Below are positions 17,003 to 25,195 of a stretch of DNA of 63,278 nt, one piece after another. The stretch covers positions 1-63,278 of the forward strand of contig JAFGPC010000065.1 of assembly GCA_016926155.1 (NCBI GenBank). The letters run 5' to 3'. The notes under the pieces were generated by a model. The model did no database searches, was not told where the DNA came from, and saw nothing but the letters and a program-made list of their open reading frames with translations. The DNA comes from Sedimentisphaerales bacterium. Its GTDB lineage: Bacteria; Planctomycetota; Phycisphaerae; Sedimentisphaerales; Anaerohalosphaeraceae. The translations under genes were made by a program, and so were the position numbers. Position 1 is the first letter of the stretch, and every line of letters begins with the position of its first letter.

Positions 17003-17044
17003 TGTGAACTTGAATCTATGAATAAGAAAACCGGGAGATGTAGT

Positions 17045-18664
17045 ATGTTTTCCAATCGATTCCGAACAGCAATCCTGAGTGTATTATTAATAACGATCAC
17101 CCTTGGAACAACGATAGCCCAAGTGGGCAGTCAGGATATTGGTCGCAAAACCATGGAGATGTTCCGCCAGAAGCAAACCGGCCAGACGGAGCTTAAAGCA
17201 CGTCACGAACCGGCCAAAGGAGCTCCCCGACGGATCTGGCAGGTTGAACGTGACCGGCAGCTTCAAAAAGAACAACCGGCGCAACTTGTCATGGAACCGA
17301 TTCCGCCCAAACCGGTCGAACCAAACACTATGATAATCCCTCCTGTCAAAGCCGATACCGGTCTGCCGATGGTTGAACCGATCGAGGTGACTCCGTTAAC
17401 GGAACAGCCCGTTCCAACGGCAACTGTTGGTTCAGCCCCGGAAGTGCTCAGTCTGGTCCCGGCCGAGAGTCTGTTCTGTGTAAAGATCCACAATTTCGAT
17501 TATGCCATGGGCCAGTTGGACAGCTATCTGAAGGGAATCATTCCGATCCCGATGGGTCTGACCTTAACGGTTCGAGGACTGGCCGGGGGGGCACTGGGAG
17601 ATCCCATGCTTACGAATATCCAAACCAATGGCGACCTTGCTGTTTTTGCCGTGATGGCCCAGGCACCCGGCACCCAGATGCAGGTTCCGCAAATTGCGGT
17701 TCTTACGCCTTTAACCGATTTTGAACAGTTTGCATCTCAAAACCCAAACGTCGGTGCCCCTGATCCAGCTAATATTTACCGTATTAAAATCCCCAATTCT
17801 CTGGTTGCCGAATTAGTTTGCACTCCTGTCGCAAAGGGAAAATATGGCCTGTTTTCAGCCGTTGATACAGGTACCCAATTGGAAAGTATCCTACCCCTCA
17901 TGCAGGGGCAGACCATCCCGAACACACTTTCTCCCGATCTACAGAAGCAATTGCAGGAAGCTCCATTCTGGGCATACGTTAATACAGGTCAGGTATCACA
18001 ACTGGTTTCTACGTTGTCCCAGGCTCAGCAAGCCCAGGGGCAAGGCTCCGGTCAGATGCAAATGGTTTTACAGCAAAGTCAGGGTCTTGTTGATTTCCTC
18101 TCTCAATTACAATGGCTCACCCTTGCACTGGAACCATCGGCACAAATGCTGAATGCTCACATCTGTATGGAAACCATACCGGATTCAGACCTTTCCAAGG
18201 GGATCAATAAGAATATGTTCAACTTACAGGCCGGTCCCAATGCCCCGCCCGAAACGGCTCAATTGATCACTCTTCTCAAGCAAATGAAAGAGACTGCTCA
18301 AACCGCCCCGGCGGCTCAGGCCCTCCAAACGGCAGATACAGCCGATTTTGTAGGAGCTTTTAATATTCTTGAATTGATCGGCACAATCGCCACAATCGGC
18401 ATGCAACAGGCACAAAATCAGGATCCTCAACAACAACAGGCCATGATGAGTGCTATGATGATGGTCGGGATGCTCAGTCAGATGGGACAGCAACTTAAGA
18501 CCAAGATGGCGGTAGCTATTACGGTTCAGAATAATACTATGAATTATGAGTTTGCGATTCCAAAGGACCATCTTGTGGAACTTATCAACTTATTTAAAAC
18601 ATTGAATCCCCAGGGTGGAGGTGTGCCGAATGCGGGTATGATGCCTCCCGGTACAATGCCCTGA
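17045..18664 (+). CDS. secreted Gln/Pro-rich hypothetical protein
   Basis: 539 residues from the ATG at 17045, chosen for the GGGAG site and the signal peptide that starts there (MFSNRFRTAILSVLLITIT, cleavage near TIAQ). Residues ~45-130 are a charged/Pro-rich linker (PPKPVEPN, TPLTEQPVPTATVG). The rest is a soluble domain with the segment LVPAESLFCVKIHNFDYAMGQ, which resembles the repeated-domain exported proteins of planctomycetes whose members are annotated as hypothetical or DUF3352-like. Long Gln/Met-rich helices appear from about 300 onward. The last transcript before the trp leader; no terminator hairpin seen before the trp promoter. Confidence 0.65.
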   Translation: MFSNRFRTAILSVLLITITLGTTIAQVGSQDIGRKTMEMFRQKQTGQTELKARHEPAKGAPRRIWQVERDRQLQKEQPAQLVMEPIPPKPVEPNTMIIPPVKADTGLPMVEPIEVTPLTEQPVPTATVGSAPEVLSLVPAESLFCVKIHNFDYAMGQLDSYLKGIIPIPMGLTLTVRGLAGGALGDPMLTNIQTNGDLAVFAVMAQAPGTQMQVPQIAVLTPLTDFEQFASQNPNVGAPDPANIYRIKIPNSLVAELVCTPVAKGKYGLFSAVDTGTQLESILPLMQGQTIPNTLSPDLQKQLQEAPFWAYVNTGQVSQLVSTLSQAQQAQGQGSGQMQMVLQQSQGLVDFLSQLQWLTLALEPSAQMLNAHICMETIPDSDLSKGINKNMFNLQAGPNAPPETAQLITLLKQMKETAQTAPAAQALQTADTADFVGAFNILELIGTIATIGMQQAQNQDPQQQQAMMSAMMMVGMLSQMGQQLKTKMAVAITVQNNTMNYEFAIPKDHLVELINLFKTLNPQGGGVPNAGMMPPGTMP

Positions 18665-18693: not shown

Positions 18694-18722
18694 TTGACTT
18701 GAATTGGTAAATATGGCATAAT
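18694..18722 (+). promoter_or_regulatory. trp operon promoter
   Basis: TTGACT (18694-18699) and CATAAT (18717-18722) are separated by exactly 17 bp. The predicted transcript start (about 18729) falls at or next to the leader-peptide ATG at 18730, so the leader mRNA is probably leaderless. Confidence 0.75.
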
Positions 18723-18729
18723 TGTTTCT

Positions 18730-18780
18730 ATGAGCAGAAACATACGAGCACGTTTTGGATGGTGGTGGCCTGTCGTGTAA
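18730..18780 (+). CDS. trpL: trp leader peptide
   Basis: A 16-codon open frame, MSRNIRARFGWWWPVV then TAA, with three consecutive TGG Trp codons at 18760-18768. Tandem regulatory codons in a short ORF upstream of trpE are the hallmark of a ribosome-mediated attenuation leader. There is no Shine-Dalgarno sequence, in keeping with leaderless translation from the promoter at 18694-18722. The last codons (Trp-Pro-Val) overlap RNA segment 1 of the attenuator, so a ribosome stalled for Trp-tRNA masks it. Confidence 0.9.
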   Translation: MSRNIRARFGWWWPVV

Positions 18781-18865
18781 TCCGGCAGGCAACGGTGGTT
18801 CTGTTCTCGAGTTGAAAGTCCGAAACGAAATCGCAGCCTGTCGCAGGATGGGTTGCGATTTTTTT
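18768..18865 (+). promoter_or_regulatory. transcription attenuator of the trp operon
   Basis: Segment 1 GCCTGTCG (18768-18775), segment 2 CGGCAGGC (18783-18790) and segment 3, again exactly GCCTGTCG (18836-18843), are present. Segments 1 and 3 are identical and both pair with 2 over eight positions (one G-U). Segment 3 lies in the arm and loop of the terminator hairpin, so 2:3 pairing breaks the terminator. Ample tryptophan: ribosome reaches the leader stop, 1:2 or masking leaves the terminator to form. Low tryptophan: ribosome stalls on Trp codons, covers segment 1, 2 pairs with 3 and transcription goes on into trpE. Confidence 0.88.
18828..18865 (+). terminator. attenuator terminator hairpin
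   Basis: An 11-bp stem (AAATCGCAGCC with GGTTGCGATTT, one G-U pair), a 12-nt loop, and a run of seven T (18859-18865). It is the 3:4 structure of the trp leader and precedes trpE by 50 nt. Confidence 0.9.
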
Positions 18866-18915: not shown

Positions 18916-20517
18916 ATGGAAGATTACAGAAAATCAATTGAAAATGCCCAACCCGGACAGATTATCCCGATCGTCAAAGAAATCGAGATGAGCGATCCCC
19001 TGGAATTTTTCAGTAAACTCAGTGATTTCGGTCGAAATCCGCACTCCTGCCTGTTTGAATCGCGGGATTATCTGACCAATGGAGGAGGCGGCGAGTTGAC
19101 TTTCGGCACGGCTCGACCGGCTCTTTACCTGACCGGCAAGGGCGAGGAATTTTCCATCCAGGCCCTGACCGACACGGGTAGGCGGATGCTGCGGTATCTG
19201 GCCCGGAATAAAGATCGATTCGGCTTCTGCAAATCCGTTACATTCGGTGAAGACACCATCACAGGCACTCTCAAAGAATCCGAGGGTATCATTGACGAGC
19301 AAGCACGTCTGAAGGCCGTCAATCAGATGGATGTCCTGCGGGCCGTCGCATTTTCTTTTACTCTTGCCAGTCATCCGTTCCGGGTCACTTGCGGGCTTCT
19401 GGGGGCGTTAAGCTATGATTTTATCGATCAATTTGAAACGCTGCCTCCCAACAAGAGCGATATTCTAAACAATCCCGATTATGAGCTTTATTTTGCGGAC
19501 AACATTTTCCTGATGGATCACACGGCCAACCAGGCGTATGTCGTTGTCAATGTCATGGTCACGGATGATGATCGGGATACGATTCTGGAACAGGCTGGGA
19601 ATTGTTTCGATCATTACTATCAAACCGCCGCATCACAGGGGAGAAAAGCCCAAAAAGAGCCTTTGCCCGCCTTCGCCGGAGGGACTGACACGCCGCGTCA
19701 GGACTATGAAAAAATGGTGGAAACGGCCAAGCAGCATATTCTGGACGGCGATATCTTTCAGGTGGTTCTTAGCCGGACGATTGCCGAACCCTGTCCGGAT
19801 GAGCCACTGGATGTCTATCGTCGTCTGCGAAAGCTCAATCCATCGCCTTACATGTTCTATTTGAACACACCCACGACGATTCTGACCGGGGCCAGCCCCG
19901 AACTGAATCTGCGGGTTCGTGGCACCGAGCAAAGAACCGTCGAAATCCGACCGATTGCCGGCACCAAGCCCAGGGGGCGGGCCGATGGACAAATCGATCC
20001 GGAAACCGACCGTCGTTACGAGGCAGAGTTGAAGCTGGATCATAAAGAACTGGCTGAGCATATGATGTTGGTTGATCTGGCAAGAAATGATATTGCCCGC
20101 GTCACCAAACCGGCGTCACGGCTGGTGACCGAAATGCTGATAACGGAAAAATACGAGTCGGTCCAGCACCTGGTCAGTAACGTCCGGGGATTTCTGCGGG
20201 ATGATCTGGACGCCCTGAGCGCCTATCTGGCCACGATGAATATGGGCACCCTGACCGGGGCTCCAAAGATTGAAGCCATGAAGATCATTCGGCAACTGGA
20301 AAAGAACAAACGCGGATACTACGGAGGTGCTGTGATGTACCTTACGGTAGATGGGCAGTTCGATAGCTGTATTACGATTCGCAGCATTCAAATCCGCAAC
20401 AAGACGGCATTTATCCGGGCCGGGGCCGGGATCGTCCACGACAGCGTACCGGCAACCGAATTTGATGAAACCGAACACAAGGCTGCCTCGTGTCTGCGGG
20501 CGGTCCGAGGTCAATAG
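18916..20517 (+). CDS. trpE: anthranilate synthase component I
   Basis: 533 residues, full length for TrpE. N-terminal tryptophan-binding region (about 25-230) carries an altered LLES-like element (CLFESRDY); the chorismate-binding domain (about 270-525) shows the family motifs DGDIFQVVLSR, PSPYMFYLN, GASPELNLRV, RPIAGTKPRG, HMMLVDLARND, GTLTGAPKIEAM and the C-terminal RAGAGIVHDS. With TrpG it converts chorismate and glutamine to anthranilate. First structural gene of the operon, 50 nt after the terminator; an AGGAGA site precedes the ATG. trpG starts 10 nt after its stop. Confidence 0.97.
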   Translation: MEDYRKSIENAQPGQIIPIVKEIEMSDPLEFFSKLSDFGRNPHSCLFESRDYLTNGGGGELTFGTARPALYLTGKGEEFSIQALTDTGRRMLRYLARNKDRFGFCKSVTFGEDTITGTLKESEGIIDEQARLKAVNQMDVLRAVAFSFTLASHPFRVTCGLLGALSYDFIDQFETLPPNKSDILNNPDYELYFADNIFLMDHTANQAYVVVNVMVTDDDRDTILEQAGNCFDHYYQTAASQGRKAQKEPLPAFAGGTDTPRQDYEKMVETAKQHILDGDIFQVVLSRTIAEPCPDEPLDVYRRLRKLNPSPYMFYLNTPTTILTGASPELNLRVRGTEQRTVEIRPIAGTKPRGRADGQIDPETDRRYEAELKLDHKELAEHMMLVDLARNDIARVTKPASRLVTEMLITEKYESVQHLVSNVRGFLRDDLDALSAYLATMNMGTLTGAPKIEAMKIIRQLEKNKRGYYGGAVMYLTVDGQFDSCITIRSIQIRNKTAFIRAGAGIVHDSVPATEFDETEHKAASCLRAVRGQ

Positions 20518-20527
20518 GAGCCTTTTC

Positions 20528-21133
20528 ATGCAAGCCAAACCAATTAATGTGTTATTTATCGATAACTTCGATTCGTTTACGTATAACCTGGTCGATGAAT
20601 TCGCCAGACGCAATTGCCCGACTTTGGTTTATCGGGCCGACACCCCCCTGTCGGAGCTGATCAAGGTTGCCGCGGATTTCGCCCCACAATTGTTATTGAT
20701 TTCACCGGGACCGGGGAATCCCGATACGGCAGGGGTAACGCTGGAAGCCATCGGGCATTTCAAAAATACACTACCGATCTTTGGAGTCTGTCTGGGGCAT
20801 CAGGCCATTATTCAGCATTTCGGCGGAAAGATCGGGCATGCTCCGCAGGTTATGCACGGGAAGGCTTCACGTATTATCCATACAGGCAAGGGAATCTTCA
20901 AGGATTTGGAAAATCCACTGCACGCCGGTCGGTATCACAGTCTTTGTGCGACGACTTTGCCGGAGTGTCTTGAAGAGACAGCAAGTTACGAAGGGATCGT
21001 TATGGGCATTCAGCATAAACAATTGCCTATCCATGGTGTACAATTTCATCCGGAAAGCATCCTGACGCCCGCGGGAGGAAGGATCATCGAGAATATGATC
21101 CAGATTGCGATTAGCAGCTCGGAAAAGGTATAG
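20528..21133 (+). CDS. trpG: anthranilate synthase component II (glutamine amidotransferase)
   Basis: 201 residues from the ATG at 20528 with a TAGGAGC ribosome site at the end of trpE; longer in-frame open sequence upstream overlaps trpE and is not coding. Class-I amidotransferase triad: nucleophile Cys in GVCLGHQ, and His/Glu in QFHPESIL. The ISPGPGNPD oxyanion motif is also visible. It supplies ammonia to TrpE; a monofunctional TrpG separate from TrpD. Confidence 0.96.
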   Translation: MQAKPINVLFIDNFDSFTYNLVDEFARRNCPTLVYRADTPLSELIKVAADFAPQLLLISPGPGNPDTAGVTLEAIGHFKNTLPIFGVCLGHQAIIQHFGGKIGHAPQVMHGKASRIIHTGKGIFKDLENPLHAGRYHSLCATTLPECLEETASYEGIVMGIQHKQLPIHGVQFHPESILTPAGGRIIENMIQIAISSSEKV

Positions 21134-21166: not shown

Positions 21167-22189
21167 ATGGCGCAAATCAACGAATATCTGGAAATCCTTG
21201 TTTCGAGGAACGATCTGAGTTTCGAACAAGCGACTGCATTACTCGATACGATTTTTGGGGGAGAAGTGTCCGAGATACAGGTTGCCGCCTTCCTTACAGC
21301 CATGCGTACCAAAGGAGTCACTGTGCCCGAACTGGCGGGATTGGCTGGATCTTTGCGAGAACACGCCGTTCGTGTTGAGACCGGTCTGGATGACATGATC
21401 GACGTTGTGGGAACCGGCGGAGCCAAATTGAAAGTATTTAACATCAGCACCGCGGCAGCGATTGTGGCAGCGGGTGTCGGTGCCCATGTCGCCAAGCACG
21501 GCAATCGTGGCATTACAAGCAAGTGTGGTGCGGCCGATGTCCTGACAGCCCTGGGTGTAAACGTTTCTCCCGGGCCGGATGTGGTCGCCGAATGCATCCG
21601 GACTGCAGGTGTTGGATTTATGTTTGCACCCAGTTATCATCCGGCTATGAAATATGTCCAGCCGGTCCGCAAGGCGCTGGGTTTCCGTACGGTGTTCAAT
21701 ATTCTGGGGCCTCTGGCCAATCCCGCTCGTGTCAAACACCAAATGACCGGTGTTGCCTCGGAACCACTGATGCGGCAGGTCATGGAAGCCCAGCAGATGC
21801 TCGGGATGGAACGCGGCATGGTTGTTCACAGCGAAGGGTTGGACGAGATCAGCACAATGGCCCCTACCAAGATTTTGTCCCTTCAGGATGGGAATATCAC
21901 CGAGTTGACAATCCAGCCGGAAGACTTTGGAATGGCCAAGGCAGAATTTGATGTCCTTAAGGGGGGGGATGCAGAGACCAATGCGGCAATCCTCAAAGCG
22001 ATTTTTTCGGGTAAGGATACCGGGCCTCGAAAAGATATCGTGGTGCTCAACGCCGCAGCCGCTATAATAGTCGCCGGTCGGGCCGAAGATTTTGCTTCCG
22101 GAATTGAACAGGCCGATGCGACAATCCGGAACGGCAAGGCGCAAGCGGCGTTGGAGAAGCTCGTGGAGATTTCAAACCAGGCGGGATAA
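21167..22189 (+). CDS. trpD: anthranilate phosphoribosyltransferase
   Basis: 340 residues, usual length. The PRPP-binding DVVGTGGAKLKVFNIST motif (about 80-95), the KHGNRGITSKCGAADVL loop and the NPARVKHQMTGV signature are clear. It joins anthranilate to PRPP to give phosphoribosyl anthranilate. GGAGG precedes the ATG. No trpC-like (indoleglycerol phosphate synthase) gene follows; trpF comes next after 11 nt. Confidence 0.96.
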   Translation: MAQINEYLEILVSRNDLSFEQATALLDTIFGGEVSEIQVAAFLTAMRTKGVTVPELAGLAGSLREHAVRVETGLDDMIDVVGTGGAKLKVFNISTAAAIVAAGVGAHVAKHGNRGITSKCGAADVLTALGVNVSPGPDVVAECIRTAGVGFMFAPSYHPAMKYVQPVRKALGFRTVFNILGPLANPARVKHQMTGVASEPLMRQVMEAQQMLGMERGMVVHSEGLDEISTMAPTKILSLQDGNITELTIQPEDFGMAKAEFDVLKGGDAETNAAILKAIFSGKDTGPRKDIVVLNAAAAIIVAGRAEDFASGIEQADATIRNGKAQAALEKLVEISNQAG

Positions 22190-22200
22190 GGATCAGACGA

Positions 22201-22830
22201 GTGTCTATATTGTCAGTAAAAGTCAAGATATGCGGGATTACCAACCAAGAAGACGCACAGGCTGCCGTCGATATGGGAGCAGATATCCTGGGATTCAATT
22301 TCTACCCGCGAAGTCCCCGTTATATCGAAGTCTCCAAGACTATGGAAATTATCAACCAGATCCCAACCTATGTCGATACCGCCGGTATCCTGGTTAATCC
22401 GACCGAAGAGCAGATTGGTGATATTTCCGAGATCGGTTTTCTCAACTGGATTCAGTTCCATGGCGATGAGACACCTGAATTCTGCAACTCATTGACCTGG
22501 CTTCATGCCAAGACGATCAAGGCCCTTCGCATTCGAAACCGGAAGGATCTGGATCCGGTTAAGGAGTATCGGACCGATGCAATCCTTCTGGACTGTTTCA
22601 ATCCCAAAGCCTACGGGGGAACGGGGGAACGATTCGACTGGGACTGGATTGACAACGGCTATTATCGTTTCTTTCTAGCCGGAGGCATCACTGCCGACAA
22701 CGCCGCCCAAGCTATCGAAACCGGCGTGTTTGCCATCGATGTCTGCAGCGGGATTGAGGCTACTCCCGGCCGCAAAGACCATCAAAAGATGAAACAATTA
22801 TTCGAAAACATCAAGCACTTGATCCATTAA
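22201..22830 (+). CDS. trpF: phosphoribosylanthranilate isomerase
   Basis: 209 residues, a TIM barrel. Starts at a GTG with an AAGGA-type site inside the end of trpD; catalytic Cys in VKICGITN (about residue 10) and Asp in [16 protein letters not shown] (about 130), phosphate-binding [14 protein letters not shown] and DVCSGIE near the end. It performs the Amadori rearrangement of phosphoribosyl anthranilate. Its product needs TrpC, which is not encoded here. trpB begins 8 nt after its stop. Confidence 0.95.
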
Positions 22831-22838
22831 GGTTTTTC

Positions 22839-24014
22839 ATGAAACACAAAGGCAGATTTGGAACATTCGGAGGTTTTTACGTACCCGAAGTGCTCATCCC
22901 GGCCCTGGAAGAGATTGAGGTCGCTTTTGATCGCTGGAAAGACGATCCTCAGTTTATCGCCGAGTTGGATGGATTGTACCGTTTCTACGCCGGTCGGCCA
23001 ACACCGCTCTATCGTGCCAAGCGGTTCAGCGAGCTAGTCGGTTTTAATGTCTATCTCAAGCGGGAAGACCTGCTCCATGGTGGCGCTCATAAAGTAAACA
23101 ACACTCTTGGACAGGGGCTTTTGGCTCGATACATGGGCAAGACCAAACTCATCGCCGAGACCGGCGCCGGGCAGCATGGTCTAGCTACTTCCATGATCGG
23201 CGCTCTGTTCGGTATGGAAACCAAAATCTTCATGGGAAAGACCGACATCGCCCGTCAGAATGTCAACGTCCACAAAATGAAACTCTGTGGCGCGGAAGTC
23301 ATTCCTGTCGAAGGCGGAACCGGGACGCTTAAGGATGCGATCAATGATGCTCTGCGATACTGGACGGCGCATGTTGATGATACGTTTTACCTATTCGGAA
23401 CGGCGGGCGGACCGCATCCTTATCCGACGATTGTCAAACATTTTCAAAGTCCCATCGGCGTAGAAGCTCGAAAGCAATGTCTCGAACAGATTGGAAAACT
23501 TCCCGATATCGTCACGGCCTGTGTCGGCGGCGGTTCTAACGCCATCGGCATTTTCTGTGGTTTCGAAGCGGATCCACAGGTCCGACTCGTCGGAGTGGAA
23601 GGCGGGGGTAAAGGACTGGATACGCATGAACATTGCGCGACCCTTGTCACGGGATCGGTCGGTGTTCTTCACGGAGCGCAAACGTACTTACTTCAGGATG
23701 AAAACGGACAGATTCGTGAAACCGAATGTATCAGCGCCGGTCTGGACTATCCCGGGGTTGGGCCGGAGCACGCCTACTTAAAAGAGACGGGTCGGGCCGA
23801 ATACGTTAGCGCCGACGATGAGTCGGTACTTGATGCGTTTGCGGCTCTGATCCGTACGGAAGGGATTATCCCCGCGCTGGAAAGCTCTCATGCCCTTGCC
23901 TGGCTGATGAGCATGAAAGGCAAACTGCCACATGAAACCAACATCGTCGCCAATCTTTCCGGCCGGGGTGATAAAGACGTGGGTATCGTCGAATCGTACC
24001 GACCGCTGGAATAA
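22839..24014 (+). CDS. trpB: tryptophan synthase beta subunit
   Basis: 391 residues, the usual TrpB1 size. PLP-binding Lys in [14 protein letters not shown] (about residue 86), the GAGQHG motif and the phosphate-binding GGGSNAIG loop are present, as is the C-terminal ALESSHALA. It condenses indole with serine; the serA gene in the same window provides the serine route. AAGG site before the ATG; trpA starts 9 nt later. Confidence 0.97.
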
Positions 24015-24023
24015 GGAATCAAC

Positions 24024-24815
24024 ATGACTACATACAAAGAAACGTTCGGCAAACTCAACCGGGCCGCCCTGATCCCGTTTTTTGTCATCGGCGATCCCGA
24101 TTATGATACCTGCCTGGAACTGGTTAAGGCAGCCATTGATACCGGGGCAGATATCCTCGAACTCGGGATACCCTTTTCCGATCCTATCGCCGACGGCCCC
24201 ACGATCCAGAAGGCGGACATTCGCGCCCTGGCCAATGGCATGACACCACAAAAGGCTCTCGAATTCATCGGCAAGGTTACGGAATACAAACCAGTTCCGA
24301 TCGGCCTGCTGGTCTATTACAATCTGGTCTGGCAGTACGGAATCGAGAGGTTTTTTAAAGACTTCAAGTCTGTTGGCGGCTCATCGGTCCTGATCGCCGA
24401 TCTCAGCATCGACGATGCCGATGAAGTCCTCGCCCCCGCGCAGGCCGCCGGTCTGGAGACGGTGTTCATGACAACTCCCATCACCGCCGAGGACCGCATG
24501 CAGCGGATTTGCGAAAAGACCACCGGTTTTATTTACACCGTTTCCACACTCGGGGTTACCGGGGCCCGCGATACGCTTTCGGACAGGGTGAAACCGCTTA
24601 TCGGCAAGCTCAAGGCCATGACGGATACACCTGTTTGCGTGGGTTTCGGGATCAGTAGCTCATCCCAGGCCAGGGAAGTCGCCGATGCCGGCGCCGATGG
24701 CGTGATCATCGGCTCGCGGATCGTAAGGATTATCGAGAATAACCTTGGTAACAAAGCCGCAATGAAGTCCGAACTTACCGATTTCATTAAAAACGTTCAC
24801 GAGGTCTTGCAATGA
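24024..24815 (+). CDS. trpA: tryptophan synthase alpha subunit
   Basis: 263 residues, full length. Catalytic Glu in LELGIPFSDPIADGPTIQ (about 48-66) and the conserved Asp in that loop; GVTGARD and the phosphate-binding GFGISSSSQ and GVIIGSRIV motifs follow. It splits indole-3-glycerol phosphate to indole for TrpB. The stop overlaps the start of the following VOC gene by four nucleotides (ATGA). Confidence 0.97.
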   Translation: MTTYKETFGKLNRAALIPFFVIGDPDYDTCLELVKAAIDTGADILELGIPFSDPIADGPTIQKADIRALANGMTPQKALEFIGKVTEYKPVPIGLLVYYNLVWQYGIERFFKDFKSVGGSSVLIADLSIDDADEVLAPAQAAGLETVFMTTPITAEDRMQRICEKTTGFIYTVSTLGVTGARDTLSDRVKPLIGKLKAMTDTPVCVGFGISSSSQAREVADAGADGVIIGSRIVRIIENNLGNKAAMKSELTDFIKNVHEVLQ

Positions 24816-25195
24816 GATTAGAACATATCGGTTTGAATGTGCCCGATGCCCTCGCAATGGCAACATGGTATACCGAACATCTGAACATGCAGTCAGTCCG
24901 CTCCATGGAGGAACCTCCCTATGCCCATTTTCTCGCAGATGCCACCGGCCGGACAATCCTCGAGATCTACACCAATCCAAACGATCCGATCCCTGATTAT
25001 ATCCAACAACACCCGCTTCGATTTCATATTGCCTTTGCCGTTGAGAATCCCACTACGACCAAAGACAAGCTCCTTTCCGGCGGGGCTACACTGATTTCCG
25101 ACGGCATCATAGAAGACGGCTCTCACATGGTTGTCCTTCGTGATCCCTGGGGGCTGGTTCTGCAATTCGTCAAACGAAAAACGAGCCTACCCTGA
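24812..25195 (+). CDS. VOC-family (glyoxalase/dioxygenase fold) protein, trp-operon linked
   Basis: 127 residues, one complete vicinal-oxygen-chelate unit of two beta-alpha-beta-beta-beta modules: begins LEHIGLNVPD and ends VVLRDPWGLVLQFV. A His in LEHIGLN, a Glu in ILEIYTN and a His in LRFHIAFAV could be metal ligands, but the usual last Glu is replaced by Gln in LVLQFV. Family members are lyases, dioxygenases or binding proteins. The 4-nt ATGA overlap with trpA puts it firmly in the trp transcript; its role there is unknown. Confidence 0.8.
   Translation: MRLEHIGLNVPDALAMATWYTEHLNMQSVRSMEEPPYAHFLADATGRTILEIYTNPNDPIPDYIQQHPLRFHIAFAVENPTTTKDKLLSGGATLISDGIIEDGSHMVVLRDPWGLVLQFVKRKTSLP

Follow-up and report, generated by a model that had tools for sequence, protein, structure and literature searches.

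A probable ribosome-mediated trp attenuator, with a predicted leaderless leader peptide, upstream of trpE in a planctomycete order

Background

The trpEGDFBA operon of a bacterium of the planctomycete order Sedimentisphaerales is very likely under the control of a transcription attenuator of the classical, ribosome-mediated kind, with charged Trp-tRNA as the signal that it senses. In E. coli, trpL encodes a leader peptide with Trp codons, its RNA can form the mutually exclusive helices 1:2, 2:3 and 3:4, and an intrinsic terminator precedes trpE. The switch described here probably works like this textbook attenuator, with which it shares the leader peptide, the three exclusive helices and the terminator before trpE. 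It differs in that it lies in another phylum, its leader is predicted to be leaderless, and it has no match to the Rfam family of the E. coli element (RF00513) at E<=10.

Has amino-acid attenuation been described in Planctomycetota before? A preliminary description of this locus was aware of no such case, and our text searches, which covered few subscription journals, found none. A paper on leader-peptide reinitiation takes in Planctomycetes, but its topic is ORF spacing. The probable attenuator represents a classical mechanism in a phylum for which no earlier report was found, and its predicted leaderless start has precedent elsewhere.

Earlier proposals that some planctomycetes have internal compartments left open whether transcription and translation are coupled there. 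Leader-peptide attenuation needs a ribosome close behind RNA polymerase, and an order-wide attenuator would therefore be indirect evidence of such coupling. The order also offers two natural comparisons, one of leaderless with conventionally started leader peptides and one of three types of TrpE that follow a switch of one kind. The switch is present in a single-contig genome of the family studied here (G287), so an isolate may be available.

The leader upstream of trpE

The following features make up the leader region of the window, by which we mean the whole 63,278-nt stretch of DNA that was analysed.

18694..18722, + strand: sigma-70-type promoter, -35 TTGACT, 17-nt spacer, TG-extended -10 CATAAT
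18730..18780, + strand: trp leader peptide ORF MSRNIRARFGWWWPVV, 16 codons and a stop, predicted leaderless, without a Shine-Dalgarno sequence
18760..18768, + strand: three consecutive Trp codons (UGG), the regulatory codons, as read from the sequence
18768..18775, + strand: segment 1, GCCTGTCG, spanning the end of the third Trp codon and the Pro and Val codons
18783..18790, + strand: segment 2, CGGCAGGC, partner of segment 1 or segment 3
18836..18843, + strand: segment 3, GCCTGTCG, within the 5' arm of the terminator
18827..18865, + strand: intrinsic terminator, a 16-pair hairpin (18827-18862) that holds segments 3 and 4

The promoter scan matched 10 of 12 consensus positions, with TG preceding the -10 box, and the T7 tract located by the terminator scan at 18859-18865 overlaps the 3' arm of the terminator. 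The leader ORF MSRNIRARFGWWWPVV is the sole short ORF with a WWW run on either strand of the window. Its 177-nt leader folds with z = -3.75 relative to shuffled sequences. Immediately upstream of the attenuator is a 548-aa ORF (17018-18664) that has no NCBIfam match.

The preliminary description is accurate to the base, and all the coordinates that it states are right. Segments 1 and 3 had been described as identical 8-mers, each complementary to segment 2. They are identical, and the complementarity stands with the correction that it runs through one G.U: the exact complement of GCCTGTCG is CGACAGGC, and in the window 1:2 and 2:3 each consist of seven Watson-Crick pairs and one G.U. An identical pair of 8-mers with a pairable 8-mer between them is present in 27 of 5000 dinucleotide shuffles of the window leader (0.5%). 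The identity had further been taken to make the two pairings equally strong, as a device for clean competition. This has to be given up on both counts, since 2:3 extends further (window duplexes of -16.8 for 1:2 and -18.8 kcal/mol for 2:3) and the identity is the usual pattern, also in actinobacterial trp attenuators (PMC1262725). Segments 1 and 3 are identical because both pair with segment 2; we rejected the identity as a special feature, as it is the ordinary outcome of a shared pairing partner.

Proposed mechanism

Transcription would start at the AUG of the 16-codon leader ORF or no more than about 3 nt away from it, and the ribosome is predicted to begin at the 5' end of the RNA without a Shine-Dalgarno sequence. 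When Trp-tRNA is scarce, the ribosome would stall on the UGG codons at 18760-18768 and cover segment 1; segments 2 and 3 would then pair, the terminator hairpin would not form and trpE would be transcribed. When there is enough Trp-tRNA, the ribosome would reach the stop codon at 18778-18780 and cover segment 2, leaving segments 3 and 4 to form the terminator, and transcription would end before trpE. If the leader is not translated, 1:2 pairing would leave the terminator free.

Conservation among relatives

A TrpE search of GTDB genomes returned 80 loci of 68-83% identity, most of them on metagenome assemblies. They are labelled Phycisphaerae, Phycisphaerales, Sedimentisphaerales, Anaerohalosphaeraceae or Planctomycetota, plus a few others that include one labelled Kuenenia and one labelled merely uncultured bacterium. 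Of the 79 loci with enough upstream DNA, the window included, 76 have a short Trp-run ORF no more than 500 nt ahead of trpE, as against one of 30 hisG loci of the same order that served as a control. A terminator follows the leader ORF in 75 of the 76 leaders examined (median -19.8 kcal/mol), L008 being the single relative in which the same detector called none. All 75 leaders with a called terminator have a run of 2-4 Trp codons. The putative trp attenuator is conserved throughout the planctomycete order.

Our covariance model of the element, R1, matches 29 of the 39 genomes from the window's family and has a single match in the window's own genome, and wherever the position of trpE is known the matches sit, as a rule, just upstream of it. 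Searched across the phylum with strict filters and eight candidates scored per genome, R1 is convincing in the window's own family only. The hisG upstream regions of 30 genomes from the order contain no His leader peptides, so there is no sign of histidine attenuation at these loci. In three relatives (L016, L080 and L082) long inverted-repeat insertions lie between the attenuator terminator and trpE; these are possibly small mobile elements.

Mutually exclusive helices

Helix pair counts were based on a plain MAFFT alignment of 68 leaders (A1). On this alignment, RNAalifold itself chooses the antiterminator 2:3. The proportion of paired cells is 88.4% for 1:2, 86.8% for 2:3 and 89.8% for 3:4, against 24-51% in slid controls, and for each of the three helices the cells in which both sides have changed exceed all 500 shuffles. 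Tested leader by leader against dinucleotide shuffles, 2:3 stands out (p<=0.05) in 66 of the 75 leaders and 1:2 in 40, or about half. The 1:2 and 2:3 sites overlap on segment 2 in nearly every one of the 75 leaders, with mean duplex energies of -16.3 and -18.2 kcal/mol, respectively. Covariation indicates that the mutually exclusive helices 1:2, 2:3 and 3:4 are conserved.

The preliminary description had named the comparison of leaders upstream of trpE in relatives as a test by which its reading could be refuted. In that comparison the Trp codons and the segments are conserved, and the reading as a ribosome-mediated trp attenuator is strongly supported by a Trp-run peptide, a terminator, covarying helices and a spacing compatible with stalling, all of which recur in relatives.

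Geometry and folding

In every one of the 68 aligned leaders, the core of segment 2 has its first base 19-26 nt after the last Trp codon. A stalled ribosome would leave it uncovered, and a ribosome at the stop codon would reach segment 2. The peptides have two layouts: in one, that of the window, the stop comes before segment 2, and in the other a longer peptide is read into or past segment 2. In two of the 68, the segment 2 core begins over 20 nt ahead of the stop codon.

Constrained folding of the nascent RNA up to segment 3, with an assumed ribosome footprint of 30 nt, gave a probability of 2:3 in the window of 0.10 with no ribosome, 1.00 with a ribosome stalled at any Trp codon and 0.02 with a ribosome at the stop codon. 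In this model, the folding of the window behaves as the textbook scheme asks. The corresponding means over 75 leaders are 0.61 untranslated, 0.97-0.99 stalled at Trp and 0.41 at the stop, and in two thirds of the 75 the untranslated RNA prefers 2:3 at equilibrium. Since 2:3 is favoured without translation in many relatives, their default state would either depend on the order of folding to keep the untranslated RNA in 1:2 or be leaky.

A stem closing the 1:2 domain

A further possible stem (0:0') encloses the 1:2 domain, and in the window sequence it is as follows.

18732-18739 with 18799-18806, + strand: possible closing stem, 8 pairs including G.U

In 45 relatives with leader peptides of the MKQI type, codons 2-6 pair with the stretch that immediately follows segment 2 on its 3' side; the paired cells amount to 80%, against 30-48% in slid controls, and changes on both sides are above all 1000 shuffles. 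Most relatives, the window's subgroup excepted, appear to carry a covarying stem that closes the 1:2 domain, a conclusion supported by these counts. Pairing of codons 2-6 implies that the conserved MKQI/MRQI start of the peptide is at least partly RNA structure. In the window's own subgroup the stem is 46% paired, which is the control level. The stem of the window itself is not above shuffles, and in one per-sequence test the segment 2 site took in the 0' arm, so that this test carries no weight for or against the family-wide stem. Run on four subgroups separately, RNAalifold did not predict a closing stem. For the window's own switch the stem was rejected as unproven, the window's subgroup being at the control level.

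Start of the leader peptide

In each of the 75 leaders the best promoter has the end of its -10 box 6-13 nt ahead of the leader ATG, with modes at 9 and 7; in scrambled sequences the best promoter falls 3-12 nt from the ATG in 10%. Transcription starts about 7 nt after a -10 box. In most leaders, the 5' end of the RNA would therefore coincide with the AUG or lie no further than about 3 nt from it. From promoter position alone, the leader peptide is predicted to be leaderless, a point that the preliminary description had overlooked.

An attenuator of the kind proposed could also have a conventional 5' UTR, the RNA starting further upstream from an undetected promoter. In relatives of families f2 and f3 the leader ATG is 20-50 nt or more from the -10 box, and several have a Shine-Dalgarno-like site. 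We nevertheless consider a conventional 5' UTR improbable in the main clade, where the promoter is in the same register in every one of the 75 leaders and no Shine-Dalgarno sequence is seen, anti-Shine-Dalgarno pairing being weak (median -2.2). Planctomycetes belong to the phyla in which few genes have a Shine-Dalgarno sequence and in which there are signs of leaderless or S1-dependent initiation (PMC5397173).

Other explanations concern the signal rather than the start. Might the peptide act as in TnaC, with the nascent chain and free tryptophan arresting the ribosome and this arrest controlling termination? In 62 of 75 leaders the Trp run is followed at once, or almost at once, by a Pro codon, and relatives have similar N-terminal residues; both would suit such an arrest. 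The Pro codons, however, provide bases of segment 1, and the N-terminal conservation of the MKQI type is at least partly RNA pairing. The peptides vary from 16 to 28 residues and are highly variable outside the Trp run; the 2-4 Trp codons of that run are the regulatory feature, as they are in attenuators that respond to Trp-tRNA. Together these make nascent-peptide stalling very unlikely. It is hardly credible that the terminator, strong as it is and placed between promoter and trpE, is constitutive or under the control of a T-box or a TRAP-like protein, with the Trp codons incidental. Trp runs precede trpE far more often than hisG in the counts given above, they also occur in relatives with other types of TrpE, and an Rfam scan of the locus at the gathering threshold and at E<=10 found nothing relevant, neither Trp_leader (RF00513) nor T-box (RF00230).

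Comparison with known attenuators

A precedent for the predicted leaderless start is the trpL (rnTrpL) of Sinorhizobium meliloti: the 5' end of the attenuator RNA is the trpL ATG, so that it is leaderless (PMC7298713), and it shares with the window a leader peptide with Trp codons and a terminator before trpE(G). This alphaproteobacterium has TrpE(G), whereas the window has a gamma-type TrpE and a separate TrpG, and a closing stem is not reported in the passages of that source that were consulted. The actinobacterial trp attenuators of Corynebacterium and Streptomyces have double or triple UGG codons, GC-rich terminators and a gGCC-rGCy-GGCC triple (PMC1262725). In these, as in the window, segments 1 and 3 agree; the core of the window, GCCTG/CAGGC/GCCTG, differs from theirs in sequence and comes from another phylum. 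In mycobacteria a leaderless poly-Cys short ORF acts as an attenuator (Canestrari et al. 2020, as cited in PMC9031893). Such ORFs resemble the window's leader ORF in being short with a run of regulatory codons, and they have the leaderless start that is predicted for it; they sense cysteine, unlike the Trp of the window. The regions upstream of mycobacterial cys operons yielded no conserved terminator hairpin (PMC1262725).

The operon and its kinds of TrpE

The genes downstream of the terminator are as follows.

18916..20517, + strand: trpE, gamma-proteobacterial type, over the NF010079 cut-off
20351..21133, + strand: trpG ORF, mechanical start, trpG homology from about residue 66
21167..22189, + strand: trpD
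22201..22830, + strand: trpF
22839..24014, + strand: trpB
24024..24815, + strand: trpA

The trpC gene (IGPS) is outside the operon, on another contig (G000:C168:25476-26258; L221). A 127-aa ORF at 24812-25195 has weak matches to lactoylglutathione lyase and methylmalonyl-CoA epimerase models; it overlaps the trpA stop by 4 nt (ATGA) and may therefore be the last gene of the operon.

The best solved relatives of the window TrpE are 1i1q and 1i7q, the enzymes of Salmonella and Serratia. In a set of 99 planctomycete genomes, the NF010079 cut-off is passed by only two proteins, one of them the window TrpE. Within the order, gamma-type TrpE is found in families f1 and f101-f104 and in part of f3. 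Three of the other genomes were typed: two from f2 have TrpEG fusions, over the cut-offs of both NF010081 and TIGR01815, and G311 (f3) scores best with trpE_most, just below the cut-off. Two further separate TrpEs, in G127 (f3) and G417 (f2), were recognised by reading the sequence. The presence of three kinds of TrpE in one order (window 18916-20517; L222, L223 and L225) suggests gene replacement or horizontal transfer.

Leaders containing Trp codons and terminators are present at all five of these loci and in other genomes of the order with divergent TrpE. Some of these leaders have spaced Trp codons only. Their ATGs are mostly 20 nt or more from the -10 box where measured, and several have a Shine-Dalgarno-like site. 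The attenuator might be older and more persistent than its enzyme, having been kept or rebuilt during replacement by three kinds of TrpE, and the main-clade switch might be obligatorily leaderless, with the ribosome of most relatives opening the closing stem of codons 2-6 and initiation and stalling together setting the outcome. We put this forward as a tentative and rather doubtful proposal. About 40 divergent trpE loci from outside the order yielded three candidates in other planctomycete families (L150, L157 and L178), each a putative trp leader peptide with a terminator and unrelated in sequence to that of the window, as well as some weaker ones. The leader of G127 (L132) is apparently followed by two terminator-like hairpins in tandem.
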